A DNA stretch of 64,000 bases from Acidobacteriota bacterium. GTDB taxonomy: Bacteria > Acidobacteriota > UBA6911 > JACQSX01. Below, one piece after another: positions 13,398 to 64,000 of this stretch. A program made the translations under genes and the position numbers. The notes beneath the pieces were generated by a model. The model made no database searches and was not told the origin of the DNA. It saw only the letters and a program-made list of their open reading frames with translations. Every line of letters begins with the position of its first letter. The first letter of the stretch is position 1. The stretch lies in the NCBI GenBank assembly GCA_016211105.1, contig JACQSX010000005.1:1-64000 (forward strand), written 5' to 3'.

Positions 13398-13410
13398 GGG
13401 AGGCAGCCTG

Positions 13411-13467
13411 GAGCAGACCGGGGCAAGAGAGGTCCCCGCCTGCTGATTGTTAAAGCCCGGCCTGCTC
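13411..13467 (+). terminator. Long imperfect hairpin after flavoprotein copy 3
   Basis: The arm GAGCAGACCGGG (13411-13422) pairs with CCCGGCCTGCTC (13456-13467) at 11 of 12 positions. A smaller CGGGG/CCCCG pair sits inside the 33-nt loop. There is no T-run after it, so it is either a factor-assisted terminator or an mRNA-stabilising structure at the end of the flavoprotein transcript. Confidence 0.4.
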
Positions 13468-13584
13468 TCCACCTTGAGGGCTCTTGCCTACCTGGAGTTT
13501 GATGATTCCGGGGGTGCCGTCCACAGTCTCGGCTACATAGCTATGAAAATTGAGTTTGTCTCACTCAGCGGAGGTACTTGAAAC

Positions 13585-13998: not shown

Positions 13999-14070
13999 CA
14001 AACTTTTTTCGGGAGCACAGGCCGGCCAAGGAAGTCCCAAGGGGACATTAAAGGACAAGTGGAGCACGTT

Positions 14071-14817
14071 ATGGAGCAATTCAAAGATCGTATTGTGATC
14101 GTCACCGGTGGTGGTACGGGAATCGGGGAAGCCTATTGCCGCGGTTTTGCCAAGGAAGGAGCCCGCGTGGTCGTGGCCGATATTGCAGCAGAGGCCGCTG
14201 GGCGGGTTGCCAAGGATATCGATGGCATGGCCATCCGGGTGGATGTCTCCGACGAAGTCAGCACAGAGGCGATGGCCAAGACAGCCCACCAGCGCTACGG
14301 GAGGATTGACATCTTGGTGAATAACGCCGCGCTCTGGACGGCCATTCTCCCTATGAAGCCCTGGACCGACATCCCGGTGGAGGAATGGGATCGCGTCATG
14401 GCGGTCAATGTTCGGGGTGTCTTCCTTGCATCCCGCGCCGTTTTTCCCTACATGAAAGAGCGAAGTTGGGGAAGAATTATCAATATCTCCTCCACCACGG
14501 CTCTGAGTGGGGTTCCCGGATTTCTGCACTACGTGGCATCGAAAGCGGCCATTTTGGGACTGACGCGGAGCTTAGCCCGAGAAATCGGTGACATCGGCAT
14601 TACCGTCAACGCGGTAACCCCAGGTTTAGTCTCGACTGAAGGTGTCAAGAGCCACTATTCGAACGAAGCACTTCAAGGAAGAGTAGCCGCACGGTCGATC
14701 AAGCGACAACAGATGCCCGAAGATTTGGTAGGGGCAGTCATGTTTTTCGCATCCGATCGCGCCGCTTTTATCACGGGTCAGGCGTTGAACGTGGACGGTG
14801 GTCATGTTATGCACTAG
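14071..14817 (+). CDS. Short-chain dehydrogenase/reductase (SDR)
   Basis: The 248-residue protein is a classical SDR. It has the cofactor motif TGGGTGIG near residue 11, VNNAA near residue 86, a catalytic serine in INISSTTA, the catalytic YVASK pair, and the C-terminal ITGQALNVDGG. An acidic residue after the second strand (VVADIA) suggests NAD(H) preference. ATG 14071 with TGGAG 6 nt upstream is preferred; GTG 14059 in the same frame is the alternative. It probably oxidises a hydroxyl intermediate in the pathway. Confidence 0.9.
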   Translation: MEQFKDRIVIVTGGGTGIGEAYCRGFAKEGARVVVADIAAEAAGRVAKDIDGMAIRVDVSDEVSTEAMAKTAHQRYGRIDILVNNAALWTAILPMKPWTDIPVEEWDRVMAVNVRGVFLASRAVFPYMKERSWGRIINISSTTALSGVPGFLHYVASKAAILGLTRSLAREIGDIGITVNAVTPGLVSTEGVKSHYSNEALQGRVAARSIKRQQMPEDLVGAVMFFASDRAAFITGQALNVDGGHVMH

Positions 14818-15101
14818 ACCGGGGATTCTGGAGTTGACCGATGGTTGTCATTAGACAGCTACGTTTGAGCTTGGCTCTTCGACGCCATGTCATCGCCCGC
14901 CGCGGATAACGCCCTACGTAATTGATTTGTAATTGGCGCCTTTTTGAGAAATGACCTGGCTTGCAGTTCTTTGCGATTAACCGCCCGCGGACTAAAGGGC
15001 AGGAACCCGCTGTATTTAAAGAATTTTTCTCCCCGCACTTGTTGTGGAGAGTGCCGATTCGGTCAATAATAATCCCTCTATCAGGGACAAGGAGTCATTC
15101 C

Positions 15102-16589
15102 ATGAGTACAGTTCAGACCAAGCTTACGAACCAGCAGCAATACGAGGGCGCCATGTATATCAACGGCCGCGCCCTACCGGTGCAGAACCCGATTCCCATT
15201 CCCAACCCGGCCCGCCTCACTGAAGTGGTGGGCACCATTCCCAAGGGCTCCATTGCCGAGTGCCATATGGCGATCGAGGCAGCCCAGGCGGCTTTTCCGG
15301 CGTGGGCTGCGCTTTCAATCCATGAACGGGCGCGCACGGTGGCCACGGCCTATGAGGCTTTCATGCCGGGGATGGACGACCGCGCCGTCCTGTTAAGTCG
15401 GGAGAACGGGAAAACCAGGATCGAGGCGTGGTTCGACTGCATGGGCGCCAAGCGCTGTGTCGATTACTACGTTAACCTGTCGAAAGATTTCGAGTTGGAG
15501 TGGGAACCGCCAGCCCCCAACGGGCGTGTTGTAGTCACTCGCAAGCCCATGGGCGTGGCTGGAATCATTGTGCCCTGGAACGCGCCAGTGCTGCTGGCTT
15601 ACCTGGGAATCGCTCCCGCCCTGATTGCGGGGAACACCGTGGTGGTGAAACCGTCCAATTTTGTGCCGCTGGCTCTGATCGATACCGTGCGCCTGATGGC
15701 GGAATACCTTCCCCCGGGAGTGTTGAACGTGATTACCGGTCCCGGCGCCGCAATCGGGAAGGAGCTAGCCAGTCACCCGCTGGTCCGCCGCATGATTTTC
15801 ACGGGAAGTGTCGAAGTGGGCAAGCAGGTGCTCCTGGACGCCGCCTCCACAGTTAAGCGTTGCACCATGGAACTGGGTGGAAACGATCCAGCCATCGTGC
15901 TGCCCGACGCCAACCTCGACACGGCCGTACCGGGAATCCTGAGGGCAGTGTTCACCGGCGCTGGTCAGATTTGCTACGATGTCAAGCGCATTTACGTACA
16001 GAAGGATATTTACTCCCAGTTTGTGAAGTGCTTCACTGAAGCGGCGGACGAGATCGTCGTGGGCAACGGGTTGGATCCCAACGTCACAATGGGATCAATC
16101 ACCACAAAAGAGCAGTACAATTTCGTCAATGACCTCATCGCCGAAAGCAAGGCTGGCTCTGGGAAGGTGACCGTCGTCGGAAAGAAGGCTGTAAGTGAGG
16201 AAGAATGGAAGAACGGATACTTCATCCTTCCCCACATCGTCACCGGCGTCGACCACCGCCACCGGGTGGTCACCTGCGAGCAGTTCGGTCCCATCATCCC
16301 CATCATATCCTTCGATACCGAGGAAGAGGCTGTCAGGCTGGCCAACGATAGCGAGTTCGGACTGGCGTCTTCTATCTGGACCGAAGACATCGAACACGCG
16401 TGGGAGCTTGCGCGCAAGATCGACGCGGGAACGACGTTTGTCAACACCCATGCTGTGGCGTCGGCTGTTGACATGCCGTTCGGCGGCTTCAAGTGGAGTG
16501 GCCTGGGACGCAGCCACGGCGTCATCGCCTTGGAAGAGCAGTACGAATTGCAGACGCTGAGCACCCGCAAGCTGCAGGGGGGAAACTAA
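15102..16589 (+). CDS. NAD(P)-dependent aldehyde dehydrogenase
   Basis: The 495-residue enzyme shows the family's features in order: PWNAPVLL, KPSNFVPL, the cofactor loop FTGSVEVGK, the general-base glutamate in MELGGND, and the C-terminal PFGGFKWSGLGRSHG. The usual catalytic cysteine region reads FTGAGQICYDVKR, so the nucleophile is present (QIC). ATG 15102 follows AAGGAG by 7 nt and is preferred to the frame beginning at 14961. It closes the + strand catabolic cluster and likely turns a semialdehyde into an acid; succinate- or muconate-semialdehyde types are possible. Confidence 0.9.
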   Translation: MSTVQTKLTNQQQYEGAMYINGRALPVQNPIPIPNPARLTEVVGTIPKGSIAECHMAIEAAQAAFPAWAALSIHERARTVATAYEAFMPGMDDRAVLLSRENGKTRIEAWFDCMGAKRCVDYYVNLSKDFELEWEPPAPNGRVVVTRKPMGVAGIIVPWNAPVLLAYLGIAPALIAGNTVVVKPSNFVPLALIDTVRLMAEYLPPGVLNVITGPGAAIGKELASHPLVRRMIFTGSVEVGKQVLLDAASTVKRCTMELGGNDPAIVLPDANLDTAVPGILRAVFTGAGQICYDVKRIYVQKDIYSQFVKCFTEAADEIVVGNGLDPNVTMGSITTKEQYNFVNDLIAESKAGSGKVTVVGKKAVSEEEWKNGYFILPHIVTGVDHRHRVVTCEQFGPIIPIISFDTEEEAVRLANDSEFGLASSIWTEDIEHAWELARKIDAGTTFVNTHAVASAVDMPFGGFKWSGLGRSHGVIALEEQYELQTLSTRKLQGGN

Positions 16590-16800
16590 CACTAACCGAA
16601 GTTTCCCCGGCGATTGGCGGCAAAGAGTGTTTCCAACTCCCAGCGCTTGGATCCTCGCACCGTGTTCCAACGCCGCAGTAACAGCCAGCGTTTCCCGCGT
16701 CGACGAGGAGCCCAAAAAAAGGAGTTCGACAAAAAAGTCCTCTTGGGACAAACCCTTCGTTGACGGCCTACTTGCCCCTTCGGGCGCGTCTTAGTCCTCT

Positions 16801-17110
16801 ATTTCGTAATTACGGTGACGTATTTTAGGCCACTTGAGGAGGTGCCTCCTTTGTGAGCTTTGCCAGGAGGGCAGCCAGCTCTTGACGGGTGAAGGTCCAT
16901 TGGACAGGACGGGCAATGTGCTGGTAGTGCTGCTGAAAGTTCATGAGGTGTTTTTCTACTTCGGTCGGTGAAAGAAAGTCATTAGCCCGGGTCTAGGTGG
17001 GGCTAGGTGTAAGAACCTTGCGTTGCACGATAGACACGATAGAGAAGAAGATTTCGATCTGATTGAGCCAACTGGCGTGAATGGGCGTGTGCACAAGAAC
17101 TGCGGCTGGC
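16801..17110 (-). mobile_element. IS630-family transposase remnant (C-terminal end with one terminal repeat)
   Basis: On the minus strand this stretch still reads as the end of an IS630-type DDE transposase: HTPIHASWLNQIEIFFS, then VQRKVLTP, then a region ending LTKEAPPQVA with a stop. An in-frame stop lies within a short insertion (SPT*TRA) after VLTP, so the gene is dead. Outside the coding remnant is the terminal-repeat motif TACGGTGACGTATTTT (about 16811-16826), shared with the remnant at 22379-23008 and, in variant form, with the MITE at 34664-34939. The N-terminal half is missing. Confidence 0.75.
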
Positions 17111-17178
17111 CGCTGGCATTTAAGAGGGAATCATGAGTTTCGGTAAAATATAGTTACTGCAATTCAGGCTCCCAGCTC

Positions 17179-20100
17179 TCAAAAAAGAACCTTCACAGCG
17201 AACTGAACCTGTCGCGAGGTCGTCGTCGTACTCGTGATGCGACCAAACGTTCTGGAAGGAGCCCCTGTAGTGTCGGTAAAAACACTGTTGCTCGGGCTTC
17301 CAAAATTGGCCCGGTTTAATATGTTGAAGAGTTCCGAGCGGAATTGTAACAACCGGTCTTCGTGGAACTGAAAGTTCTTGACCAGAGAGAGGTCCAGCGT
17401 GGCCACTCCGGGCCCACGCCCAGTCCCTTTCCCCAGGTTTCCGAAAAAGCCCAGGTCCTGAAGTTGGAACTGAGTACCGTCCCAATACTGATCAGGATTC
17501 CGAGTGTCCACAATCGGATTATTGTTGCCGCCCGGCTTCAGATTTGGAAATTCCTGACAACACGAAGGAGAGGTGATCTGGGACCGGGCCCGCTCAATGC
17601 CGACCGTAAAGCTCCTCGGAGTTCCATTTGCCAGGGTGACGATACCGTTGATCTGCCAGCCGCCGAGTAGCAGGTCTGTCTTCCCCGAAGACAACCTCGG
17701 CAGGTCGTAACTAAAACTGGAGGTCAGCACATTCTTCACATGAAATCCGGCAGGGCCCCAGTCCCGTTTCCAGTTAAACGGATCCGATGAACCGGTCGTA
17801 GCGCCAGGGACCTCGCTGGTTCCTGTATTCCCGTTAGCGACGGACATCGTCTTGCCGAAGGTGTAGGACACCTGAAACTGATATCCCTGGCTGAACCGCT
17901 TGTTCAGCATCACCTGAAGCGCATTCTACATACTGGGGACATCCATTCGTTCGTAAGAGACCGCGCCCAAAGCCGGATTGAGGCGGGGCGCGCCGGCGGG
18001 GAAAAACTTTCTCCCGTCGGGAAGAATCTGAAATCTCGAGATATTAGTCATCTGTTCCCGACTGATGTGCACTGTCTTTGAGCCGGAATACCCGACCGTC
18101 AGCACGAAGTCCTGGGCGAGACTCCGCTGAATGTTCAAATTGTACTTGTACAAGTACCCCCGGCTCACGTCGGGACCCAGAGACTGGATGAAAAACGGGA
18201 GAATGGGTGACGCAGCCAGGTTGAGAGCGATGGATTCCGGCATCATGAGGTTGTAAAAGATTCCTCCTCCCCACCGCAGGGCGGTCTTGCCGTCTCCGAA
18301 AACATCCCATGCAAATCCGACGCGTGGGGCGAAGCACGTCCGACAAGGATTATCGTACAGGGTTCTGCGGACGGTCATCGCTTGGTCAGTCAACGGATTG
18401 ACCAGCGTAGCAATTTTCCCGTGCACTTCACTCGGTTCTGTGGTGAGCTCGTAGCGCAGCCCCAGATTCAGAGTGAGTCGGGGAGTCAGCCGGACGTCGT
18501 CCTGGACGAACGCCGCAAAACCCCGAAAGCGGTAGCCGCGAATCGGGTCCGACTCTGGAAGCATGATGTCCAACCCCGCCGGCATATTTCTCAAGAAGTT
18601 TTCCACGTTATTGAACCGGAAGCGACCATTCCAGGCGAAGGCGGCGAATGTGTTGAATTGGTATCTCCTAAACTCGGCGCCTACGCGTAACGAGTGCCGG
18701 CCCCGCGTGTAGGAGATATTGTCGATCAGCTCAAACAGGTTTTGGGTCATAAGCCGATCCGACTGAAAGAAGTAACCATAAGACGAAAGTCCCGTAACGT
18801 CAATCCCACCCAACGGTCGCCCCGGCGCGAAGCTGAGAGATGGGTCGATGGTAGCTGTCTGTCGGGAAACCGACCCAACAACATTTCGATTGAATGAAAA
18901 GCGAGCCTCGTTGAGAAGGACAGGCGAGATGACCTTCCGTTCCTCGATTGTCGTAAAGTGCCTGTCCGTCTTACCCGGATTGTCAAAACCAGGGAAGGGC
19001 CGCTGTGTCACAATTGACGAATCATCCACCACCTGCCGTACAAAGAGCATGTCGGAAGGTGATAAAGTGTAATCGACTTTCACCAGGTAGTAACGCTCAT
19101 CGCTCGGCTGGGTGAAGGAACGAATCAACTCGCCCCGACCATCTCCAAAGTCCCTTCCGTTAGGCAGCGGATACAGATTGACATAGGGTTTCACGGCGGG
19201 GTCGATAGGGATGATCCGCCCTCCGAGATTACCTTGATTACCTTGCCGCCCCGCAGCACTGAGAGTGTTCTGAATACTGGTTACGCCCAACCGATCACGT
19301 AGCTCTTCATAGGCGCCGAAGAAGAAGACCTTGTCCTTTCGAATCGGGCCTCCCGCCGTAAAACCAAACTGGTTGCGCTTAAATTCCAGTTTCTTCTGGT
19401 CGAAAAAGTTCCGCGCATCCAGGTTGTCGTTGCGGAGGAACTCAAAGACCGACCCGTGAAATTCGTTCGTCCCGGACTTGGTTACCGCGTTGATCACACC
19501 CCCGGATCTGGTCCCGTACTCGGCGCTGTAGATGTTGGTCAGCACCACGAATTCACGCACCCCTTCAACGCCCAGCGTGGCACCGGGCACACCCGCAGGA
19601 GTTCGGTTGTAGTTGTCTTGGACATCAGAGCCGTCGAGGCGAAAGGCGTTCTGGTTTGGGCGAGCGCCGGAAATAGAGATCCTGGGGCCGGATCCTTGTG
19701 TGGCTGTGTTGGCCTGCCCCATGCTGGGGGGGCGTAGACCCCTGACTGCAACGTCGCCAGTTGGCTGAAATCCCGGCCGTTGAGAGGAAGGTCCCGGATC
19801 TGCTTGTCGTTGACCGTTGCCCGGACGGCAGAGCTGGTAGTCTCCACCAAAGCCGCTTCTCCCGTCACCATGACCTTCTCGCTAATCTCTCCTACCCGCA
19901 TCACGAAGTCCAGGACCGCTTCCTGCCCCACGGAAAGCGTAATCCCACTGCGCACCGATGTTTGAAAGCCCGCCAGCTCGGCCTGCACTTCGTAACTTCC
20001 AAGCGACAGATTGGGAAGGTGATACCTCCCCGAGTCGTCGGTGACAATGGCCCGGCTAGCTCCCGTGTCGAGATGCCGGACAGTGACCGACACGCCCGGC

Positions 20101-51326: not shown

Positions 51327-53642
51327 ATGGTAAGGGAAAACGAAGCTTTGGAATACCACAGTCGTGGACGAAAGGGAAAAATTGAAGTCGTCCCGACGAA
51401 ACCCTGCAGCACGCAGTGGGATCTCTCGATGGCTTATACCCCGGGGGTTGCTGTCCCCTGTCTACGAATCAAAGACAATCCGGACGAGGTTTACAACTAT
51501 ACCGCCAAGGGCAATCTGGTGGCGGTGGTGTCCAACGGAACCGCGGTATTGGGCCTGGGTGACATCGGTGCGGCAGCAGGGAAACCGGTAATGGAAGGCA
51601 AGGGAGTCCTGTTTAAGCGATTCGCCGATATTGATGTGTTCGATATTGAGATCGACAGTCACGACCCGGATGAGGTCATCAAAGTTGTCAAGTTACTGGA
51701 ACCCACTTTTGGAGGCATCAACCTTGAGGACATCAAGGCGCCGGAATGTTTCCACATCGAAGAGACGCTTATCCGGGAACTGAAGATCCCGGTGTTTCAC
51801 GACGACCAGCATGGCACCGCGATCATCTCGGGTGCGGCGCTGCTCAATGCGCTGGAGGTGGCGCGTAAGAACATTGATAAGGTGAAAGTGGTCTTCAATG
51901 GGGCGGGCGCTTCTGGAATTGCGTGTGCCAAGTACTACATCGGCCTAGGCGTCAAACGGGAGAACCTCATGCTGTGCGACAGTACGGGTGTCGTCTATAA
52001 AGGGCGGCAGAAGGGGATGAACCCGTACAAGGAACAATTGGCCGCTGACACGAAGGCCCGCACATTGGCTGAGGCACTGGTCGACGCCGACGTTTTCGTC
52101 GGCCTCTCGATTGCCAACTGCGTCACTCAGGATATGGTGCGTTCCATGAATGAACGGCCGATCATTTTCGCGATGGCCAACCCGGACCCCGAAATCACGT
52201 ATGAAGAGGCGAAGGCGGCCCGCCGCGATGTGATTATGGCCACGGGAAGATCGGATTATCCCAATCAGGTCAACAACGTGCTGGGCTTTCCATTCATTTT
52301 TCGGGGCGCCCTGGACGTGCGCGCCACGGCCATTAATGAAGAGATGAAACTAGCCGCGACGCGTGCACTGGCCACGTTGGCGAAAGAAGATGTCCCGGAT
52401 TCAGTCATGAAAGCTTACGGCGTCAGCCGTCTCCGTTACGGGCCAGAATACCTCATTCCTAAGCCGTTTGACTCGCGCGTGCTGATTTGGGAGGCTTCCG
52501 CGGTAGCCGAAGCGGCGATGCGAAGCGGGGTTGCGCAGACGAAAATCGACATTGAACTCTACAAAGAACAGCTCGAGAGACGGCTGGGCAAGTCGCAAGA
52601 AGTGACACGCATCATGATCAACCAGGCAAAGCGAAATCCTAAGCGTGTGGTGTTTCCCGAGGGTTATCATGAAAAGGTTCTCCGAGCCAGCCAGATCATC
52701 GTGGACGAGGGCTTTGCCCAGCCCGTGCTCTTGGGCAAGGAGGAGCGGATTCGCCAGTTGACAAGAGAGCACGATTTGAACATCAACGGCATCGCTATTG
52801 TGGATCCAGCCAGTTCCGTAAAGCATGAAGAATATGCGCAGGAGCTGTTTCGGTTACGCCAGCGAAAGGGTGTGACACTGGCGCAAGCGCGGGCGCGCCT
52901 ATTGCGGAACCCCACGGTCTACGGCGCCATGATGGTACACATGGGCGACGCGGACGCCCTGGTTGCGGGAGTAGACCAATCGTATCCGGAAACGATTCGG
53001 CCGGCGCTGGAGATTATCCAAATGCGCGAGGATGTTGCCCGCGTGGCGGGGCTGTTCATGATAATTTTCAAGGAGAAGATTTACTTTTTTGCCGACACGA
53101 CGGTCAACATCGAGCCTACGGCCGAAGAGCTAGCCGATATTGCCATTTGCAGTGCTGAAGTGGCCCGCCGCTTCCAGATTGAGCCCAGAATTGCCATGCT
53201 TTCGTTCTCCAACTTTGGTACCGCCAAGCATCGGTTCGTGGACAGGGTGCGGGAGGCTACCGAAATCGTCAAGCGGCGAGCTCCAGATCTCATCGTCGAC
53301 GGCGAGATGCAGGCCGACACGGCAGTGGTCCCGGAACTGATGGAGCAGCACTACCCGTTCAGCCCTTTGAAGGGGGGAGCCAACGTGCTGATTTTCCCAG
53401 AGCTCCAGTCAGCCAATGTGGCATACAAGTTGGTACACCGGCTGGGCGGCGCGGAAGCAATCGGACCTATCCTGATGGGGATGCGCAAACCCGTGCATGT
53501 ACTCCAGCATGGTTTTGAGGTGAAGGACATTGTCAACATGGCGGCCATCGCGGTAGTGGACGCCCAGGAGGCCGAGGAGAAAAACAGGTTAAGAAGATCC
53601 AGCGCCGAACGGGGCAGAGAACACGTTCCCATCTCTACGTAA
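51327..53642 (+). CDS. maeB: Malic enzyme-phosphotransacetylase fusion (MaeB type)
   Basis: The 771-residue protein joins a malic enzyme (about 1-430; [36 protein letters not shown]) with a phosphotransacetylase-like domain (about 440-770; [26 protein letters not shown]). It turns malate to pyruvate with NADP; the second domain usually regulates it by acetyl-CoA. CTAGGAGAAGGA lies before the ATG. It converges on the PPDK-like gene, so pyruvate and PEP enzymes stand together. Confidence 0.92.
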
Positions 53643-53739: not shown

Positions 53740-56700
53740 TTACCGTGCCTTTCGGTGCAGCGACAGGGATCCGATGTATACCTCTCCCGATGTCCCGTGG
53801 ATGGAGACGATGTCTCCCTTTCGGATGGGGTAGCGCTCCACTCCCGTGGCGTCTACAATCACGGCCGTGTGTTCTTTCAGATTGACGCGAAGGCCCACGG
53901 CGCTCATTACGGCGTGAAAGCGCTTGTTTTCAATTCCGTTGATCGCGACGGCGGCGTGAGAGCTCGACCCACCTTTTGCGGTCAGCAATCCATCTGCGGA
54001 AATGATCATAGGGATGTCGTCCGGCGCAGGGTTTTCCAGCACCAGTAGCACACCGTCGACATCCTCCCGCTCGTTTAAATCCGTCGAGGCTAGCTCCTTC
54101 CGGTCCATCTCGTCAAAAGCGACGCGTCCTCTGAAACCACCGCCTCGGATGCCGATTCCGCGTGTCGCCGACTCGCCGGGAGCAACAAAGGTGTTCGTCT
54201 CCAATTGCATGCTGGTTTCAGCGGTTCTGGACTGGAGAACGCTCAGCACCCCTCGCTCCACCGTGAACTCAATTTCCTGATCGGTCCCCGTCAACCTTCT
54301 AAGTTTGGCGACGATGTGCTTCAATCTTCGCTCCAGCATGGGCATCAGGTTGCCCAATGCTCCCATCGGCTGGAAGGAGGTGGAGGTGGTTAAAGCTCCG
54401 ACCAGATCGTCGCCCACGGCGGAGAATTTAATCTCTCCGGCGAATGTTCGGACTCCCCAATCGGTCATGTAGGTGCGGGGAATCACGCCGGTGAGCGAGG
54501 CCTTGGTTTCATCCATCCCCTCTCCAACCTCCTCGTTTTTTCTGTTTCCTGAGGCCATTTCCTGAACGATGACAGCGGTGTGCCACGTGTGACAGATGCC
54601 CTTGATCGTCCGGTACCGCCTTGCCCTCTCGCTGTTCCAAGACTGAAACACGGCTTGGACGGCGCTGAAAAGTTGTTTCGTGGGATCGTTAAGGATTTCA
54701 TCCAGTTGCGGGCCGAAGCCCTGCTGTCGAATGATGCTTTTGGACATCTCAACAATTTCTTTCATCGCCACCCAAGGAAGCCGGTATTTGTACGGGACCT
54801 TGTAGCGGCGCTTCATTTCCTCCACCAAGTGGAAGCCTTCGATGTCGATGGCCCACGCCGCCGCGCCGTAACTGGCAAGAAACCTTCGATAGGAATCATA
54901 AGCGTGCCATGCGTCGTCCTGTGCGAGCCCTTCGGCGATTGAGTCGTTGATGCCCGCGAAAACGATCGTCGACAAGATCCCGGGCAAGGAAAACACCGAG
55001 CTGCCCCGCACTGCCAACAGAAGCGGACACTTGGCGTCCCCAAACCGCCTTTCGACGCCATCCCGTCTGGTAATGTCCTCTTCCAGAACCCGAAGATGAG
55101 CGGCAATCTCCTTTTCCAATTGCGGCCGGTTGCGATGATAGAGCCCCGCGCGGGCGAACGTGGTCGGAAGGATGAAACCGTCGCAGGTGGGAATGTTCAT
55201 GTAGCTGATATAAATGAGACTGCTACCCTTTCCACCGTACTGGTCTCTCGGATTCGGCAGACTCTCAACGCGCTGCGCCAGCTCTTGTATATCTCCCTTG
55301 TGAGAAAGGTGAACCACGCCGTTGCCGGCAAAGCCCTCTAAGGGTTCAAGGGGCAGGTTCCCAATCGGTCGTGAGGAGTCCACAATGTGATTCTGGATGT
55401 GTGTTCTTGCAAGATCGCAAAAGTGAACCATGCTGTTCAGATCGTGCATGTAACGCGTCATGTTGGCGACAACGGCGCGCAGTTCGCCCGCCTCAAGCCC
55501 TAACCGGTGAGCCATCTTTTCGTAGGCAATCGTAGCGCGCTGCAGAATCTTGTGGTAATCACGCTGGATGCTCTCCAGCAGATTTGTCACCTCTGCATAC
55601 GTCTTGGTCGGGTCGGTCAATATGGCGGCAAAGTCGGCCAACTCTCGCGAGAATAAGCCATCATAGTCAAGATTCGCGATGCACATCCGAATGATATTGA
55701 GGCACTGGTTGAGTTCGACTCCCCGGTCGTCATATGCGGCTGCCACGTGTCGCAGAGCGAGAAATCCGATTTCTTCCAGCAAGCAGTCCAACTGATACAG
55801 ATAATAACGCTGCTCGGTAAATCCACCCCGCTGGATGCCACTGTGAAGGGTCTGGCGGAGTTTGCAAATTTGTGAGAAGGTTTCAAAGAAGGCCCCTTGT
55901 TCGTAACAAGCCAGCACCTCCTGAAGTGACCGGAAGAGGTCATTTTGGTAAGCGTTCTGGATTTCCCGGCTAAAACTCCTCACACAGTCTCTTGCGATCC
56001 GTTCCGTGCCTTCAACAACAAAACCGGCCTGGTCCGGCATCAGGGCCGTCAATGCTTCCAATCGGCTTTTGAATCCTTCCGCCAGGCCCGAAGGAGAAGA
56101 AAAATCTTCGACTTTCCTGATAAGAATCCGCAGATGGTGATAGTAGACCCATCGGTTTCTTGTCCGAATCCCCTTGTTGACCAGTGCCTCCAATTCGTCC
56201 TCGAGACTGTTGCCGAATTCACACCGTAAGAGGCTCTCGGCGTACGCGTCCCGCCACTCCTGGATTCTCGTTACCACTTCCGAAATCCCGAGAAGTTTCT
56301 CCAAACCGAGTACGACGCGCTCCACAATCCTGCGGGGAGTTTTGCGACTTCTTGCCAGCATGTCGGCTGGCGACGGAGCCTCAAAACCGAAGCGGGCCAG
56401 TCGCTCCGCATTCCCCGTGTCGAGGTAGTCTAAGTACATCTTCGCGAGAAGAAGCGTCCTTTTTCCCAGCGCATGATGCGCGCTCCTTCTCAGCTCATTG
56501 ACAATCGCGCTACCCCGAATGTGAATCTCAGCTAGATCAATCGTGTCATTCCACAGCTCGTCGATGACTTTCGGTCTGAGGATAATGCCGGATAAATTTC
56601 TGACAAGAATTCGTGTGAGCAGCCGATGCCGGCGTGAAAATGGCCCATTGAGGAGGCGAACCAGTTGGGTGATGAGATTATTGACTTCCGGCTGCACGTT

Positions 56701-57279
56701 CTTTGCCCCGAGAAACGCTTCAAAGGAGAGACTGCACAATTTCGCGGCCAAGAAGCGAAGACAGTAGATCATTTCGTTGCGGTTCGTACACGCGTTCACT
56801 CTTTCCAGCAGGAAAGCAATATCGCGGATTCGCTCAATATGGATTTCCGCAATCTGGTCATCTTGGAATTCAAACAGCTCTCGCTCCAAATCGACGGGTT
56901 CGCCAGACAAGCCGATGGTTCCGGCAATGAGAGCGTCTGTATAAATCGTCCCGGCGGGAAATTGCCGGACGACGACCCGATCCGTTGTTCCATCCCGAAC
57001 GATGTAGACAACCAACGTTTCCACAGCCAGATAGGGCACAATCAAAAGAGGCGCGTCTCTTAGGATCCGATTATTGACAATCCCGAACCGCCCCACTCTG
57101 CCCGCTATTTTGGATTTGATGTGGATGTAGTAACGCAGCGCTTCCTTGCTGTCTACGTCTGCCTCGGCGGGGACATGGGCGCGGTACAACGCTAGGTTGA
57201 GAGTTGCGATTTGCTCCTTCTCCTCTTCGGTGAAGGGTTCCAGAGTGAATATTTCGGGTCCGGCGGCGCTCTGTTGCAT
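53740..57279 (-). CDS. PPDK/PEP-synthase-like protein without the PEP-binding barrel
   Basis: The 1179-residue protein has three parts. Residues 1-650 are mostly helical and not recognised. Residues about 670-1050 are a PPDK-type ATP-grasp domain (YGGKGSSLIYI, VRGSSVFSLPGILSTI, PTKQLFSAVQAVFQSWN). The end (about 1080-1179) is the phosphohistidine domain, with the phosphorylated His in LTAKGGSSSHAAVA and GDIVSIHGTSGEVYIG. The C-terminal TIM barrel that binds PEP/pyruvate in PPDK and PpsA is missing. It starts 20 bp after the enolase fusion gene (CGAGGG site), so they form an operon. The phosphoryl acceptor is unknown; the large N-terminal region may supply it. Confidence 0.85.
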   Translation of the reverse strand: MQQSAAGPEIFTLEPFTEEEKEQIATLNLALYRAHVPAEADVDSKEALRYYIHIKSKIAGRVGRFGIVNNRILRDAPLLIVPYLAVETLVVYIVRDGTTDRVVVRQFPAGTIYTDALIAGTIGLSGEPVDLERELFEFQDDQIAEIHIERIRDIAFLLERVNACTNRNEMIYCLRFLAAKLCSLSFEAFLGAKNVQPEVNNLITQLVRLLNGPFSRRHRLLTRILVRNLSGIILRPKVIDELWNDTIDLAEIHIRGSAIVNELRRSAHHALGKRTLLLAKMYLDYLDTGNAERLARFGFEAPSPADMLARSRKTPRRIVERVVLGLEKLLGISEVVTRIQEWRDAYAESLLRCEFGNSLEDELEALVNKGIRTRNRWVYYHHLRILIRKVEDFSSPSGLAEGFKSRLEALTALMPDQAGFVVEGTERIARDCVRSFSREIQNAYQNDLFRSLQEVLACYEQGAFFETFSQICKLRQTLHSGIQRGGFTEQRYYLYQLDCLLEEIGFLALRHVAAAYDDRGVELNQCLNIIRMCIANLDYDGLFSRELADFAAILTDPTKTYAEVTNLLESIQRDYHKILQRATIAYEKMAHRLGLEAGELRAVVANMTRYMHDLNSMVHFCDLARTHIQNHIVDSSRPIGNLPLEPLEGFAGNGVVHLSHKGDIQELAQRVESLPNPRDQYGGKGSSLIYISYMNIPTCDGFILPTTFARAGLYHRNRPQLEKEIAAHLRVLEEDITRRDGVERRFGDAKCPLLLAVRGSSVFSLPGILSTIVFAGINDSIAEGLAQDDAWHAYDSYRRFLASYGAAAWAIDIEGFHLVEEMKRRYKVPYKYRLPWVAMKEIVEMSKSIIRQQGFGPQLDEILNDPTKQLFSAVQAVFQSWNSERARRYRTIKGICHTWHTAVIVQEMASGNRKNEEVGEGMDETKASLTGVIPRTYMTDWGVRTFAGEIKFSAVGDDLVGALTTSTSFQPMGALGNLMPMLERRLKHIVAKLRRLTGTDQEIEFTVERGVLSVLQSRTAETSMQLETNTFVAPGESATRGIGIRGGGFRGRVAFDEMDRKELASTDLNEREDVDGVLLVLENPAPDDIPMIISADGLLTAKGGSSSHAAVAINGIENKRFHAVMSAVGLRVNLKEHTAVIVDATGVERYPIRKGDIVSIHGTSGEVYIGSLSLHRKAR

Positions 57280-57299
57280 AAAAAGCCCTCGCTTCTACG

Positions 57300-59939
57300 C
57301 TATCTCTGCAGCGGCGAACTCGACCCGACGGGCGAGATCTCGGTCGTGTCTCCGCCGGGTAGCGTCGACTTCGGTCGGTCAAGCCTGGAGGCCACTGGAT
57401 TCATCACCTCGGAAGCCGGTTGGCCGGCGGGCAATTCAATCTCTGTCCTTGAAGGTGGCAGCGTACCCGCGGGGGAGAGCTCATCGTTAGCATAAATGTT
57501 GGTGGTCTCGCGGATTGCCTGGTACAGTGGTTTTCCCTGCGCCTCCAAAAGTCGGTTTACTTCTCGGAGGGCGTACACATAGTCGGAAAATCTACTGCCA
57601 GCGATCGGTATTTTGTAAGTCCCTGCCAGAGAGTCGATGATGGCAAGCATCTCTTCACGCAACAGCTCATAGAGTTGCTTTCCCTGCACATGGGCGAGCG
57701 CCCGGGCAAGCGCCAGGGAGACGGATAACAGCGCATTCATGCCGAGATTCTGCTTGCGCTGCATGACTCGAACGGCGCTTTCCCGCGAAGCGTGTAGGTC
57801 GAGCTTGTTTCGCTGCCGGGCCAGACGTAACTCCAGTTGCAAAAGGGCTCGATCGATATCCTTGACGGTGTGGGCGGCGATATCGCGCCCTTCAAAATAT
57901 GGCGCGACCGTCTGACGGACATTGTCGACGGCATTCAGACAGCCCTTTCCCTGGTAACGCTGGGCGCGGGTGAAGATGGCTCTCAGCCGCTCGTCGCCCG
58001 GAGTTCGGCCTGCTGGAACATCTTTTTTGAAGGCATACACGCCGGGTTCCACTTCTCGGAAGAAAGTTGAATACTTCTTAATCAATTCTCGGTGTTCCGC
58101 GTACTCGACGAAGGCGTCAACAAGGTGTACTGCTTCCCCGGTGCCGGCAGAAGTGCCAAGGGGTGTCGCGCCGTTGAACGTAAGGCAGACGCCTGCATTC
58201 GGGAGATGGAGTTCCACCTCGACGCCAACGGTTGGAACTCCGGCATTGGTAGGCTCCTCGTAAGCGGTGACTTTGCGAATCACCGCGTTCTGCCCTTCAG
58301 ATATGGCGCCCAGCCTGCCGGCGTCGGCCAGCTTTGCCATCAATGTTGTCACGGCTTGATATTTGACGAGCCGCTCCGTGTTTGCTCCACCTCCCGCCTT
58401 GAGGCCCAAGGCGTTGGCAGCCAGCGCAATGTGGGCTTCCATCGTATCATTCGGGCTCTTGGACCGGTGCGATACGATCAGTTCCAGATTCTTGCCTAAC
58501 GCCACCAGCATTGCGAGCAGGGTCTCGTAGAGGGAACCGATTTGGTTGGCCTTGATCAGCGCGACATTGATCAGCCCTTGGGAGGCGGCCATCTCGATGG
58601 TTCGATCGTTGGTAGTTACCAGATCGTCGCCGATGATGAAGATTCTGTCTCCCAGGGCTGCCAGTAACTTTTTCCATCCTTCGTGGTCGTTTTCCGAAAA
58701 GCCATCTTCAATTGAGAGGATCGGAATCTCATACTTTTGAACTGCCTGGTTGTAAATCTCCAAGACCCCGTCCCGATCCATGACAATTTTGGTCTTATCC
58801 CTCCAGAAAAGGTACATTCCCACGGCGTCAGGCACGTTGTACTCGGTCCGGTAGGCGTTCTCCAGTTCACTCATCGCTGGGTCCAGAGCAATGGCGACAT
58901 CGATACCGGGCCGATAGCCGCACTCCTCGATTGCCTGCTTCATCATTGCCCAGAGCCGGATTTCAGGGAGGGGATAATCTCTTTTGTCAATGTAGGGAGC
59001 CAGGCCGCCTTCCAACCCGATACCCATCACCCGGCACCCATCTTCCTTCTCAATGATCTCTTTGAGACGGGTCTGCAGCCGCACAGTCATCTCTTGGGCT
59101 TCCTGATAATCGGGCGCGCCCAGGATCAAGAACATGGCCTCCTGCATACTGATGTTCGACTCCGGATAATCTTTTTCCGTATGTCGACCCCCCATGCCGC
59201 AGTTCCGGAATTGCCAGGGCGCCGCTACCGGACCCAGGTGAGGATGGTTGGCCTCCCGCACGCGCTCGGCCAACATCTTTTGCTTGACCTTCGTGGCCAG
59301 TTTGTACCACTCGGACAGCTTGGGCACCGCTTGAGCCGATTGTTGCGCTCTTCGCTCCTGTTCTTTGAATGCCGCATACTTCCCGGGGTCTGCCAGCAGA
59401 AAGTCCAGAAGCGTCACGATGCCGATGCCGAGCAGAAGTCTCCCCGCATAGACAGCAGCCGGGATGTGCGATAGAAGCCCCAGGGCAATGAGGAGCAGAG
59501 CGGGAGGCAGCGCACTCCATGCCGCATTGCGGCTTGCCCGTGGACCTTCCGCCGCGACCGCCAGGTTATAGGGGGCATCAGGATAATAATTCAGACCTTC
59601 CCGCTTGATGCCGCCGCTTTTTCCATAAGGGGCAAAGGTAAATACCTTCGCATAGTACAGAAGACGTTGCGGGAGAGGTTTTCCAAGTTGTTGTCTTACT
59701 TCTTCCAGCACCTTCTGGTTCAAAGCATTTAGTTTTGCCGCTTTCCGAAAATGGCCAATTTCGTGGATGGCAATTCCCGTGTGGAAGCTGAGGTACATGA
59801 ATAGAGCCGAAACTAAAGTTTCCGGGCTGTAGAAGATGAACCGCAGGACCTCGGCCTTCAATACCGCGGCGGCTGGCAAGACCAGCACGGAGGAGATGAA
59901 CGCTACGTGAAATGAAACCAGAATATGGTTGGCAATCAC
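57300..59939 (-). CDS. Circularly permuted enolase fused to an intramembrane HExxH domain
   Basis: The 879-residue protein starts with an M50-like membrane domain (about 1-195): several hydrophobic helices, HEIGH at 59-63, and LLDFLLADPG near 177-186. Next comes the enolase catalytic barrel (about 242-537): His253, Gln266-Glu267, Glu310, Asp353, Glu411, Asp439, Lys463, Arg492-Ser493 and Lys514 match E. coli H159, Q167-E168, E209, D246, E290, D317, K342, R371-S372 and K393. Only then does the usual N-terminal domain follow (about 547-760; PTVGVEVEL, SAGTGEAV, LGMNALLSVSLALA), so the order is reversed. A low-complexity tail closes it. GTG 59939 with AGGAGGGG upstream is preferred over ATG 60161, whose first 74 residues look non-coding. 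Confidence 0.88.
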   Translation of the reverse strand: MIANHILVSFHVAFISSVLVLPAAAVLKAEVLRFIFYSPETLVSALFMYLSFHTGIAIHEIGHFRKAAKLNALNQKVLEEVRQQLGKPLPQRLLYYAKVFTFAPYGKSGGIKREGLNYYPDAPYNLAVAAEGPRASRNAAWSALPPALLLIALGLLSHIPAAVYAGRLLLGIGIVTLLDFLLADPGKYAAFKEQERRAQQSAQAVPKLSEWYKLATKVKQKMLAERVREANHPHLGPVAAPWQFRNCGMGGRHTEKDYPESNISMQEAMFLILGAPDYQEAQEMTVRLQTRLKEIIEKEDGCRVMGIGLEGGLAPYIDKRDYPLPEIRLWAMMKQAIEECGYRPGIDVAIALDPAMSELENAYRTEYNVPDAVGMYLFWRDKTKIVMDRDGVLEIYNQAVQKYEIPILSIEDGFSENDHEGWKKLLAALGDRIFIIGDDLVTTNDRTIEMAASQGLINVALIKANQIGSLYETLLAMLVALGKNLELIVSHRSKSPNDTMEAHIALAANALGLKAGGGANTERLVKYQAVTTLMAKLADAGRLGAISEGQNAVIRKVTAYEEPTNAGVPTVGVEVELHLPNAGVCLTFNGATPLGTSAGTGEAVHLVDAFVEYAEHRELIKKYSTFFREVEPGVYAFKKDVPAGRTPGDERLRAIFTRAQRYQGKGCLNAVDNVRQTVAPYFEGRDIAAHTVKDIDRALLQLELRLARQRNKLDLHASRESAVRVMQRKQNLGMNALLSVSLALARALAHVQGKQLYELLREEMLAIIDSLAGTYKIPIAGSRFSDYVYALREVNRLLEAQGKPLYQAIRETTNIYANDELSPAGTLPPSRTEIELPAGQPASEVMNPVASRLDRPKSTLPGGDTTEISPVGSSSPLQR

Positions 59940-60327
59940 CCACCCCTCCTGAAGAAAGCAGCCTGGTAGCCGATCGACCAAGGAGGCTCCCCAAGGTCCG
60001 GAACGGTCATGGGTTTGACATGGCGAGCCAGGGGTATGGCGGCGCTGTCTCGGTAGGGTCCTGCAGACGGTTTCCGCAATTGAACTTGCCGTCTCACTCG
60101 GGCGGTCTTGAACAATCCCGTTACATCGACTGGAAGTTTGAAAATGTTTGATCTTGACCATTTCACCACCTAATCACCACGTAGGGCGAAGACAAACGAC
60201 GATCTGCTTAAGCCTAATCTGCTTCGGTTGGTAGAAAGGATATTCCTTTTTTCCTGCTGATTGAAGTCAAAATGGGAAATCGGGAGATCCGACACTCCGG
60301 GCAAGATGTGGCTGCCAAGGGGATGCG
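59940..60327. other. Leader region between the NrfD-like and enolase genes
   Basis: These 388 bp separate two minus-strand genes. Two frames stay open through the part near the enolase start: one continues into the enolase (from ATG 60161) and the other is a 77-codon frame whose TGA overlaps the enolase GTG as GTGA. Neither translation resembles a known protein. The region may hold the operon promoter. Confidence 0.5.
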
Positions 60328-61530
60328 TCAGGAGGTTTGCCTGGAAGCCTCTTTCCACGGAGGTATGAGTTTCACTAGGATGGTCAGAATGACAAACGGC
60401 AGCACCAGCAGAGCCAGCGCCATCATTAGTCCTTCCGAGCCGATGACCTCCATTTTATACGTCGTTAGTCCCCGAAGGCTCTTTGAAAACAACTGACCTC
60501 CAATGACGACATTCCACCGCGTACTAAATATGCCGACCTGAATCAAAATGCAGGCCGTGAAATAGAGCAGTTTTCTCAGTTCTTCGCTTAACCTCCACGC
60601 TCTTCCTGCCACCAGCATTGCCGAAGGGATGATCATTCCCAACAGCACCTGAATGATCAGAAGGCTCATGAACAGTTTTTGATTGATCAGGGTAGCCAAG
60701 ATCTTAACCGATTCCTCACTTTCGTAGAGCCGGTGTACAAAGTCAAGCGCTTCAAGAGAAAAATCCACAATCACGGCGTAAAACAAGAATGAGGCGAGTC
60801 TGTCCAAGCATCTCATGTCGATGGTTTCACCCCGAATTGGGGTAATCACCATATACAAGAAAATGATCAGCGCGATGCCTGAGACAATTGCTGACATCAG
60901 AAAAACGATTGGCATCAAAACGCTGCTCCACCATGGGTTGGCCTTCACCGATCCAAATATGAATCCCACGTATCCGTGCAGGAGAAACGCGGACGGAATG
61001 CCAATGATCGTGATCGCCTTGGCGGCTTTGTGATCGAATTCCAGCGCCCGCTTACTGATATCGTTTGAAAACAGGGAGAGCAGCCGGTAGATCCATTTCA
61101 TGGGGAACTGTTTTTCCCGGGACCACACGACGAGGTCCCCCCGGTATTCGAACCATATTTCCAGCAATAGCACGCCCATCAGATACCAGGCGTACACAAA
61201 CCCGAACATTGCCATGGCGGACCTGAGATTTGGCGTAAGGAATATTTCGTAGGCGCGTTCGGGATGCCCCAGATGCAGATTGAGCGGTAAAGGAGCTACC
61301 AAAAGAAAAGAGAGTGCGGTCAACAATGACAACCTGTAGGTAGGCCGCACTTCTTCCACATTAAAGACCTTGACTAGTGAAGCAAGGATGAATGCCCCGG
61401 CAACGACCCCGGTAACATAGGGATAGACCACGATGAGGATCGACCAGTGAATCTCGATCTCATTGGGGTAGATGTAGCCCGTGACCTGGCTCAAAAGATC
61501 CGTTAACTTTTCAGTCAATTCCTGATTCAA
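60328..61530 (-). CDS. NrfD/PsrC-like quinone-interacting membrane subunit
   Basis: The 400-residue protein has about ten membrane helices and NrfD-like features (HWSILIVVYPYVTGVVAG, then HLGHPERAYEIF, and a C-terminal RWNVVIGGQLFSKS region), the quinone-oxidising or -reducing subunit of complex iron-sulphur enzymes. The TTG start at 61530 overlaps the ferredoxin stop (TTGA) with GGAG 7 nt upstream. An in-frame longer reading to 61680 would run through the upstream gene and is not preferred. Confidence 0.88.
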   Translation of the reverse strand: MNQELTEKLTDLLSQVTGYIYPNEIEIHWSILIVVYPYVTGVVAGAFILASLVKVFNVEEVRPTYRLSLLTALSFLLVAPLPLNLHLGHPERAYEIFLTPNLRSAMAMFGFVYAWYLMGVLLLEIWFEYRGDLVVWSREKQFPMKWIYRLLSLFSNDISKRALEFDHKAAKAITIIGIPSAFLLHGYVGFIFGSVKANPWWSSVLMPIVFLMSAIVSGIALIIFLYMVITPIRGETIDMRCLDRLASFLFYAVIVDFSLEALDFVHRLYESEESVKILATLINQKLFMSLLIIQVLLGMIIPSAMLVAGRAWRLSEELRKLLYFTACILIQVGIFSTRWNVVIGGQLFSKSLRGLTTYKMEVIGSEGLMMALALLVLPFVILTILVKLIPPWKEASRQTS

Positions 61531-62273
61531 TTCACCACTCCGTCCAGACCCGAGTAATAGACTTTTGGTTCCGTATTGAGATAGGGCTTCAGGACGTGGA
61601 TCTTGTTCATTCGCTGGAACCGTACCAATTCGCTTGCCCGGCTCCGTAAATCTCCGAAAATTCTCGCTTGCGTGGGACAAACTTCAACGCACGCAGGAAG
61701 CAATCCTTTGACGACTCGGTGATAGCAAAATGTGCACTTGTCCGCCGTCCGGGTTTGGGGGTGGAGATAGCGAGCTCCAAAAGGACACGCCTGAATACAA
61801 TAGCGGCACCCAATGCAACGATCTCGGTCTACTAGAACCACCCCATCGTCCGTTGAAAACGTGGCGCCGACGGGGCAGACCTGTACACAGGGCGGGTTGG
61901 CGCATTGGTTGCATGTTTTTGGAACAAAAAAGCTACGGAGGATATCCTTTTCCTCAATCGTTTCTTTTGGTTGTTTCCCTCCGGTGTGGATGCTCTCCAC
62001 AGCAACGCTGCTGTCTTTCTTGATGATGTATCGCTCTACCCATGTCCGGAAAAAGAACGGCTCTCTGGGCACATTGTTTTCAATCTTGCATGCCTCGATG
62101 CATTTACCGCAGCCGATGCATTTTGCGACCTCGATCCCCATTCCATAGTAGTGGTTCTCTGGATGGTAACCGTTGAGGTCAGAATTTGCCTGGGCGGCTT
62201 GAATCGTTGCCCTGAAGGCCCCACTCACAGGAATAAAGAGAATGATGTTTTTCAACAAATCCCGTCGCTTCAT
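61527..62273 (-). CDS. Tat-exported ferredoxin with four [4Fe-4S] clusters (DsrO/HybA-like)
   Basis: The 248-residue protein has an RRDLLKNI signal segment and sixteen cysteines in four sets: CIGCGKCIEAC, CNQCANPPCVQVC, CIGCRYCIQAC and CTFC...ACVEVC. It passes electrons between the NrfD-like quinone subunit and periplasmic cytochromes. ATG 62273 begins 1 bp after the octahaem cytochrome stop; the longer frame to 62579 lies inside that gene. Confidence 0.9.
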   Translation of the reverse strand: MKRRDLLKNIILFIPVSGAFRATIQAAQANSDLNGYHPENHYYGMGIEVAKCIGCGKCIEACKIENNVPREPFFFRTWVERYIIKKDSSVAVESIHTGGKQPKETIEEKDILRSFFVPKTCNQCANPPCVQVCPVGATFSTDDGVVLVDRDRCIGCRYCIQACPFGARYLHPQTRTADKCTFCYHRVVKGLLPACVEVCPTQARIFGDLRSRASELVRFQRMNKIHVLKPYLNTEPKVYYSGLDGVVN

Positions 62274-62274
62274 G

Positions 62275-63012
62275 TCACAGCCTTTCCGCCGGCAGGTGCG
62301 GATAATGACACTGCCAACAAACATACTTCTCCCAGTGGGTCGAGAGGTCGATCTTGGGAGCGTCCACGACCGGCGCGCCTTTGGCATGGCATTTTCCGCA
62401 GAAATCTCTTGTCTCGGGTTTCGTCGGCCTGATAATGCGGGGCGTGATCTTATGTTTTTCTGGCACTGTGTGACATGTGGTGCATGCGACCAGAGCGTGC
62501 GAGGAGATGGCTTTTGTGCGAACAATCCCGGCGTGGCAGGCGGCGCATTCCTCCGGGGTTCTGGGTGGCACCGGGTCATGGGGATTATGGCAGGTCACGC
62601 ATGGTTGTAATGGGTTGTGAATCGTGGGATTGATTTGCGGAAATCCCGTGGGTCGCGACGGGTCGTATTCGTGGCACGTCGGGCAGCCCCGTCGCTCTCG
62701 CGCCACGAAAGGCTTTATCGTGATGGGATCTGCCGCGTGCTCGGCCGCGGGTCCGTGACATGTTTCACAAGACAAATTTCGGTGATAACCAGTCTTCTTC
62801 TGTTGGTATTTGTCGTCATGGCAGTCTGCGCATGCGTTCGAACCTGCAAACTGGATGGGCTTTGCAGTCTCCGCCAGTATGGTGGAGCGTCGATGAAACG
62901 GTTTGTCCTTGAGCGCAGGAGGCAGCAGATAAAGCGTCAGTGCGACGCTGCCAAAAATGATGGAGATGACGATCCCGAGTCTTATGATTTGCTCAGGTAC
63001 TTTCTTTGGCAT
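62275..63012 (-). CDS. Eight-haem cytochrome c, membrane anchored
   Basis: The 245-residue protein has an N-terminal membrane helix (about 9-30) and eight CxxCH motifs: CADCH, CETCH, CPTCH, CVTCH, CAACH, CTTCH, CGKCH and CWQCH. With the ferredoxin and NrfD-like proteins it makes a quinone-to-periplasm electron route. Spacing to the downstream ferredoxin gene is 1 bp. Confidence 0.9.
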   Translation of the reverse strand: MPKKVPEQIIRLGIVISIIFGSVALTLYLLPPALKDKPFHRRSTILAETAKPIQFAGSNACADCHDDKYQQKKTGYHRNLSCETCHGPAAEHAADPITIKPFVARERRGCPTCHEYDPSRPTGFPQINPTIHNPLQPCVTCHNPHDPVPPRTPEECAACHAGIVRTKAISSHALVACTTCHTVPEKHKITPRIIRPTKPETRDFCGKCHAKGAPVVDAPKIDLSTHWEKYVCWQCHYPHLPAERL

Positions 63013-63373
63013 TGCGTTCTTCTTCTAGCTGCTCATGGAAACGGCCCTACGGATCAGAGCTTGTGCTCTGTGTACGCAACAGAAGCAACGCGACTACGTC
63101 TATAAGGTTCGTGGGCAGCGCAGATTTTCTAAGAGTGCTGCAAGCGGGTTGGATGGCGGTACAACCGCGGCCGAAATGCTGTCCTGGCGCGGGTCCTCGA
63201 TTGAATTCCCGATTCATGTCGCGTCTAAAGTGCAATTCGCCAGTTCCCCAGCAATAACCGTACCAATGGCGGAGGCGTCTCGGCCAGAGTGCAAGCCCGC
63301 GGTCAATTCGGTGATATCCCCCAGGGCATGGGCAAAATCCCCAACCCAGAATTAAAGTGCTGACATCCATGGT
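63013..63373. other. Gap between two cytochrome genes without a recognisable gene
   Basis: The 361 bp carry open frames on both strands but none with a ribosome site, known motif or haem-binding cysteine. A GC-rich middle part reads smoothly in one minus-strand frame (GDFAHALGDITEL) without a start, which may be chance or an old remnant. Confidence 0.4.
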
Positions 63374-64000
63374 TTAGGACTTTTTTTCACCTCGTCGAAA
63401 TGAGTGACAGTCCTGGCAAGCGGCCTCCGGATTGTGCGCGGTTTTGTCTTGGTGGCAATTGAAGCAGAGCTCTTTCTCGCCTACTTTCCACTGGTGCGGG
63501 ATATGGCAGAGGGTGCAGTCTGCTGCCGAATGAGTGGGCTTGAGGTGCAGTTCGCCCAACCCAGTGTGACAGGTCGTACAAGCCTGTATCGGCTTAACGT
63601 ACTGTTCCTTCAAGTGACACTGATTGCACTCGAAAGCCATGGGTGCATCCGCCGGGCGTTCGTGACACGTTCCGCATTCCGCTACCAGCCCTCTTCCCCT
63701 CCAATGACATTGCGTGCAGCTGATCTCAGCGTGCTTCCCTTGAAACGGCCAGGGATGCTTGAATTTTTCTGCCATGACCACTTCCGTAGGATTTCCCACC
63801 TGTGTTTCCTGGCCAATGATGGCATGGCAGAGTTGGCAATCACGGCGAATGACCTTTCCCTCCCGGCTTATATGCTTTCCCTCGTGGCAGCGAAAGCAAC
63901 CTGGGTATAAAGTGTGACCGATGTTGTCCGGGTGCGTCCGCCAGTCCACCTTCATCTCTGGAAAGAAATTGGTTTGGTAAATTTGTTGGATTTGTCCAAT
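63374..64000 (-). CDS. Multihaem cytochrome c (at least nine haems), start outside the window
   Basis: The frame is open to the window edge, reading QIYQTNFFPEMKVDWRTHPDNIGHT before the internal ATG, a segment that usually stands in the middle of longer NapC/NirT-like membrane cytochromes. Nine CxxCH motifs are visible: CFRCH, CQLCH, CTQCH, CGTCH, CNQCH, CTTCH, CTLCH, CFNCH and CQDCH. A NapC-like anchor is expected beyond the edge. It is the first visible gene of the NrfD module. Confidence 0.88.
   Translation of the reverse strand: MGQIQQIYQTNFFPEMKVDWRTHPDNIGHTLYPGCFRCHEGKHISREGKVIRRDCQLCHAIIGQETQVGNPTEVVMAEKFKHPWPFQGKHAEISCTQCHWRGRGLVAECGTCHERPADAPMAFECNQCHLKEQYVKPIQACTTCHTGLGELHLKPTHSAADCTLCHIPHQWKVGEKELCFNCHQDKTAHNPEAACQDCHSFRRGEKKS

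Follow-up and report, generated by a model that had tools for sequence, protein, structure and literature searches.

Evidence for a circularly permuted enolase fused to an M50-like membrane domain and paired with a dikinase half

The locus described here raises two questions: does a single bacterial gene encode an enolase whose two domains stand in reversed order behind a membrane domain resembling a metalloprotease, and, if so, what might such a protein do? The window, a 64,000-nucleotide stretch of an Acidobacteriota contig, contains an open reading frame (ORF A; Table 1) for which a first-pass annotation, made from sequence alone, had proposed this arrangement and given the interval 57300-59939. 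That interval is slightly short, as the frame runs 57300-60161 (-); conserved sequence begins only at ~59951, and the true start codon is uncertain. All of the enolase motifs that the annotation quoted are present in the translation of this frame.

Ordinary enolases contain an Enolase_N domain followed by an Enolase_C barrel. In ORF A the Pfam matches have the opposite order: Enolase_C is found at residues 320-616 (2e-51; 175.5 bits versus a cut-off of 21.5), and Enolase_N is found at residues 628-777 plus a second stretch (2.3e-16; 60.6 bits versus a cut-off of 35). The reversal also appears in a PDB sequence search, in which the N-domain piece matches after the barrel and the best relatives are bacterial enolases. 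As encoded, ORF A matches TIGR01060 in two stretches (237.9 bits); when its halves are swapped back, the match becomes continuous, from position 34 to 413 of 425, with a score of 253.9 bits. The equivalog cut-off of this family is 300 bits, and ORF A, at 236.9-253.9, lies below it. The AlphaFold model of ORF A (mean pLDDT 86.3, pTM 0.84) contains the enolase barrel, with a best Foldseek match to a PDB enolase of 6.5e-14; the Foldseek matches inspected for this model are enolases only and hence are uninformative about the M50-like part. Because Pfam, the PDB search, the TIGR01060 reordering test and the modelled barrel agree, the reversed order is shown, and this claim of the first-pass annotation held. 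Its proposed refutation, an Enolase_N match before Enolase_C or none after residue 540, failed, since Enolase_N starts at 628. All family members submitted to Pfam likewise have Enolase_C ahead of Enolase_N. There is little doubt that ORF A is a permuted enolase fused to an M50-like domain.

Table 1. Coordinates of ORF A, ORF B and their parts in the window
Feature	Position	Strand	Basis or remark
ORF A, 953 aa	57300..60161	(-)	M50-like membrane domain + circularly permuted enolase (very likely)
M50 (site-2-protease)-like membrane domain	59322..59942	(-)	weak PF02163 matches in relatives, hhalign, AF2 helices, hydropathy
HEIGH, matching the HExxH zinc motif	59751..59765	(-)	conservation
DFLLAD, with D183 or D188 (A1 numbering) as putative third zinc ligand	59388..59405	(-)	conservation; role by analogy
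Enolase_C TIM barrel, normally the C-terminal domain	58314..59204	(-)	Pfam, PDB sequence match, Foldseek
New joint, usual enolase C-terminus to N-terminus	58281..58313	(-)	residues 617-627, between Pfam matches
Enolase_N domain, normally N-terminal, with insertions	57651..58280	(-)	Pfam; TIGR01060; residue alignment
Short intergenic gap, ORF A to ORF B	57280..57299	(-)	stops of both frames there or at its edge
ORF B, 1179 aa, dikinase half	53740..57279	(-)	next gene, same strand; fused to A in most relatives
Mostly helical domain, ~640 aa	55318..57237	(-)	AF2 model
PPDK_N ATP-grasp nucleotide-binding domain	54223..55257	(-)	PF01326 4.3e-14; TIGR01828 2.5e-69; PDB 1kbl 2.5e-21
PEP-utilizers swivelling phosphohistidine domain	53758..54120	(-)	PF00391 1.1e-6
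Catalytic-His equivalent of phosphohistidine domain	53956-53958	(-)	His invariant in 28 rows

An obvious objection is that such a gene is an assembly artefact or a chance juxtaposition of two gene fragments. In favour of this, relatives were found at 42 loci among 84,980 species genomes scanned, and all of these come from records titled as metagenome-assembled genomes. Against it, the same architecture is present at 42 independent loci and in further genomes of the window's phylum, and the permuted sequences group together on a tree. The independent loci refute the artefact explanation, and with it the assembly join of two genes that the first-pass annotation had named as a possible refutation. 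One locus (L046) carries the architecture on a 4.35-Mb contig, and near full-length relatives with 67-76% identity exist in a genome of the same genus (G001) and in two of the same class (G019 and G009).

The homologue search suggested by the first-pass annotation shows that the gene is no isolated instance and that its family is widespread, a spread that the annotation had missed together with the dikinase-half partner and the ordinary enolase elsewhere in the genome. Because two short peptide patterns served as seeds for the scan, the family has at least 42 loci. The labels of the 42 contigs represent roughly twelve groups of bacteria: Acidobacteria, Aminicenantes, Thermoanaerobaculales, Gemmatimonadales, Deltaproteobacteria, Desulfonatronum, Myxococcales, Gammaproteobacteria (Lysobacterales and others), Planctomycetota, Krumholzibacteriia, WOR-1, Cloacimonadota, Spirochaetes and Elusimicrobia. 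The distribution is patchy; within the window's phylum the membrane-domain profile is matched in 11 of 396 sampled genomes (one by a fragment only), and within its class in 4 of 38. A plasmid collection yielded no record covering 80% of the query. In the barrel tree the permuted and ordinary enolases lie on two sides of one branch (100/94), with a long branch between them, and their separation is therefore shown. A single origin of the permuted form is consistent with this tree and remains possible; it is not proven, because one degenerate paralog (L127) is long-branched and the tree was midpoint rooted.

The enolase active site is conserved throughout the family. Counterparts of H159, E168, E211, D246, E295, D320, K345, H373, R374, S375, K396 and S39, in yeast enolase numbering, are invariant in 37 of 37 rows of an alignment of relatives (A3); the first-pass annotation had judged the catalytic and metal-binding positions of ORF A to appear intact, which held. 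The loop serine equivalent to yeast Ser39 is held by the relocated Enolase_N domain. More divergent members, tabulated apart, also keep these twelve catalytic, metal and substrate positions, with the sole exception of the degenerate paralog. The permuted enolase resembles phosphopyruvate hydratase (PF03952 plus PF00113, TIGR01060) in its barrel, its N-domain and all twelve positions examined, whereas it differs in its reversed domain order, N-domain insertions, membrane front and score below the equivalog cut-off. Beside the catalytic residues, GDEGG has become GLEGG and SHRSGE has become SHRSKS. It is likely that enolase chemistry is retained, although conversion of 2-phosphoglycerate (2-PG) to PEP is inferred and rests on no assay.

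Unlike an ordinary enolase, the permuted form is usually an extra gene. The host genome also encodes an ordinary enolase (418 bits), so the permuted protein is probably not the enzyme of housekeeping glycolysis. Ordinary enolase accompanies the permuted one in 20 of 24 genomes checked; G083 has only two partial hits, and G064, G073 and G080 have the permuted enolase alone, which incomplete assemblies may explain. PPDK-length proteins are usually present in these genomes as well. At locus L125 an ordinary enolase gene, 6050-7492 (-), adjoins the permuted one convergently.

The front of ORF A was described in the first-pass annotation as carrying HEIGH in a region like that of M50 proteases, and this held in the sense of M50-like, below the family cut-off. 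PF02163 (Peptidase_M50) is matched weakly by 10 of 11 family members (best 5.3e-6); the best scored members reach 24.5 and 23 bits, short of the Pfam cut-off of 27.2, and the window's own front domain has no Pfam match by itself. A search of PDB sequences with the M50-like region returned only unrelated thioredoxin-domain chains (E 0.35). When the front domain is aligned by hhalign with M50 proteins of related genomes, probabilities of 85-89% are obtained (reversed control, 0.1%), and the HExGH and an AGP-type motif are brought into register. The AlphaFold model places long helices in this domain, and three regions exceed the hydropathy threshold (>1.6 in 19-residue windows whose first residues lie near 5-22, 142-152 and 163-172, counted along the conserved part). 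HEIGH lies inside a predicted helix, 43-73, where 19-residue hydropathy stays <1.6; that this helix, itself a model prediction, is buried in the membrane is less certain than it is for the adjacent ones.

Conservation of the putative metal site is nearly complete. HExxH is present in 36 of the 37 A3 rows, the remaining row being gapped at this site, and among the other divergent members tabulated only the degenerate paralog lacks it. D188 is invariant in A3, and D183 is kept in 36 of 37 rows; the Spirochaete has N at 183. If the LDG motif of M50 is taken as a guide, either aspartate might provide a third zinc ligand; the ligand has not been identified. Thus the likeness to site-2 proteases (PF02163) consists of HExGH in a predicted helix, the AGP-type motif, a conserved Asp region that follows, and a weak yet reproducible profile similarity. 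In contrast to those proteases, the front domain does not reach the family cut-off, neither a PDZ nor a CBS domain was found, and enolase sits where a cytoplasmic regulator would. Because the matches are weak or sub-cut-off and the HEIGH helix is under the hydropathy threshold, the label is limited to "M50-like": the front is not a proven M50 protease, and protease activity, zinc binding and membrane localisation are all inferred.

ORF A is followed by ORF B, which encodes half of a dikinase. The ATP-grasp domain and the swivelling His domain occur in the same order as in pyruvate phosphate dikinase (PPDK; TIGR01828; PDB 1kbl), with the catalytic His and the invariant ATP-grasp columns kept. 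Unlike PPDK, ORF B has no C-terminal PEP/pyruvate barrel, as it ends directly after the His domain and has no match to the PEP-utilizers C-terminal family; it carries ~640 extra aa in front, and it is fused or linked to the permuted enolase. The extra helical domain has no PDB match of its own and no Pfam match reaching cut-off, and the Foldseek matches below 0.001 are all to PPDK, PEP synthase or rifampin phosphotransferase. Rifampin phosphotransferase and glucan water dikinase follow an ATP-grasp and His-swivel logic with a non-pyruvate acceptor and no pyruvate barrel; similarity to these is limited to a weak Foldseek match to 5hv6/5hv1. The pyruvate kinase of Bacillus, which carries a C-terminal PEP-utilizer His domain, is a glycolytic enzyme joined to a PPDK-type His domain; however, it lacks the enolase, the ATP-grasp domain, the membrane domain and the permutation. 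An origin of the A/B split in a single indel was considered and rejected. Because both frames carry stops between the ORFs (57300-57302 and 57295-57297), which one base change cannot join, and because ORF B has its own ATG, a single sequencing indel is excluded; GAGG, a ribosome-site-like stretch, precedes this ATG.

In another reading, the enolase and dikinase folds would have been recruited to act on a different substrate in some pathway not yet described, for example in the phosphorylation and dehydration of another 2-phospho-acid. The long branch to ordinary enolases, the GLEGG/SHRSKS changes and the N-domain insertions favour this idea, and the 640-aa helical domain might serve as a new site for the acceptor. 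However, all twelve of the metal and 2-PG/PEP positions checked are retained, the HRS motif and Ser39 among them, and recruitment is considered unlikely.

The pairing of the permuted enolase with a dikinase half recurs. At 34 of the 42 loci a single open frame covers A and B wholly or partly, and complete frames encode 2026-2371 aa. The other eight comprise four loci truncated by the end of the stretch (L048, L063, L076 and L080) and four without a fused dikinase partner (L074, L075, L077 and L079). In the Spirochaete (L077/L106) and WOR-1 (L074/L107) a similar dikinase half, B2, is the neighbouring gene on the same strand, and in four genomes of the window's phylum (L121-L124) B2 lies convergently beside the permuted enolase. 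Neither B nor B2 was found within the surrounding stretch examined for Cloacimonadota L075, Elusimicrobia L079 or L125-L127; L125 and L126 belong to G125 and G144. Over 396 genomes the B2 profile splits sharply, with seven genomes above 740 bits and the next at ~210 bits and below. B2 adjoins the permuted enolase in four of the seven; in G019 it is separate from that genome's own A-B fusion, and in G404 and G360 it is present without a match to the membrane-domain profile. Recurrence of the pairing is thus shown, and its different arrangements (fused, neighbouring, convergent) suggest that the parts cooperate, an inference also drawn from the presence of three conserved sets of catalytic sites in one chain.

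Several variants were observed besides. In Spirochaete L106, 5390-10057 (+), two tandem copies of the dikinase half share one 1556-aa frame, which adjoins the permuted enolase. Elusimicrobia L079 (= L105), 9061-18429, has a 3123-aa frame that combines the permuted enolase, triosephosphate isomerase and unidentified N-terminal parts. One Myxococcales genome has a free-standing copy of B, and free-standing dikinase halves (B or B2) with no permuted enolase nearby occur at L104, 7785-11342 (-), and at L140, L141 and L142.

How might these parts function? The preferred reading, in which function is inferred and none has been demonstrated, is that of a trigger-enzyme membrane protein with a metabolite- and ATP-gated M50-like site; it is held tentatively, with slightly more doubt than belief. 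Its presumably cytoplasmic portion, the naturally permuted and probably active enolase, would partner with the dikinase half (ATP-grasp plus phosphohistidine swivel), either fused or encoded beside it. Turnover or binding of 2-PG/PEP in the enolase portion and ATP-dependent phosphorylation of histidine would jointly gate the M50-like metal site, which in turn would cleave a membrane substrate. CBS-domain site-2 proteases such as SpoIVFB are gated by ATP, and these are the proposed parallel. The first-pass terms "probably active" and "membrane-tethered" likewise remain inferences. Because HExxH is conserved as well as the enolase residues, the M50-like part appears to be more than an anchor. 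In the degenerate paralog (L127 2-2959 (-)) the Glu of HExxH has disappeared along with the catalytic residues of the enolase, a joint loss suggesting that the two sites are coupled, although this is one case only; the genome concerned, G144, also carries an intact copy (L126). Against protease gating, the M50 assignment is sub-cut-off, the dikinase half is without its barrel, so that the phosphoryl acceptor is not identified, and L125 and L126 have no dikinase neighbour in the stretch examined. In addition, intact enolase catalysis exceeds what a mere sensor would need. Gating is therefore a proposal only.

The main rival, which is possible, is a membrane-tethered metabolic enzyme. The permuted enolase would interconvert 2-PG and PEP at the membrane, the dikinase half would move phosphate between ATP and an unknown acceptor, the chain would channel PEP chemistry, and the M50-like part would be an anchor or perform an auxiliary metal reaction. 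In support of this, the enolase and dikinase catalytic residues are fully conserved; PEP is both the product of enolase and a ligand of true PPDK; a polyphosphate:AMP phosphotransferase-type gene downstream in L065 and L068 could recycle AMP made by the dikinase; L125 adjoins an ordinary enolase gene; and in L079 the frame also encodes a triosephosphate isomerase domain. However, an anchor could dispense with HExxH, the PPDK barrel for pyruvate/PEP is missing, and the genomes concerned usually encode an ordinary enolase and PPDK-length proteins too. The trigger-enzyme model is ranked above the metabolic one only narrowly.

A bolder form of the trigger-enzyme reading, toward which our confidence likewise falls a little short of the doubt, is an undescribed membrane machine in which an active permuted enolase and an ATP-driven phosphohistidine swivel would control or feed an intramembrane metalloprotease. 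If true, membrane proteolysis would be tied directly to lower glycolysis and to the energy state. Few enzymes are as conserved as enolase, and no report of its natural circular permutation, or of such a fusion, was found in the full text searched; subscription papers were mostly, and bioRxiv preprints wholly, outside this coverage. Because the literature searched was incomplete, novelty is not proven; each domain is of a known kind, and the permutation and the combination are likely to be new as far as can be told. A permuted enolase with a membrane-protease-like site and half of a dikinase, all three sets of catalytic residues being kept, offers a testable case of the rewiring of a housekeeping enzyme, possibly into a sensor.

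No conserved operon partners recur widely across the loci inspected, and no recurrent neighbour fit to be a protease substrate was seen among those neighbourhoods. Genes for Fe-S, NrfD and molybdopterin proteins were considered as partners and rejected, as they are near several loci but not consistently adjacent. In the window, 60328-64000 (-), upstream of ORF A, encodes an NrfD-like membrane protein (Pfam). Judged by sequence alone, it also encodes an Fe-S protein resembling ferredoxin and CxxCH-rich proteins resembling multihaem cytochromes. The same-genus locus L033 likewise has NrfD- and Fe-S-like genes. PPK2-family genes lie directly downstream of the fusion at L065 (9106-10623) and L068 (6881-8428), and the L065 copy matches polyphosphate:AMP phosphotransferase TIGR03708 above cut-off. 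The window also contains, at 51327-53642 (+), a 771-aa malic enzyme fused to phosphotransacetylase, a known MaeB-type arrangement.
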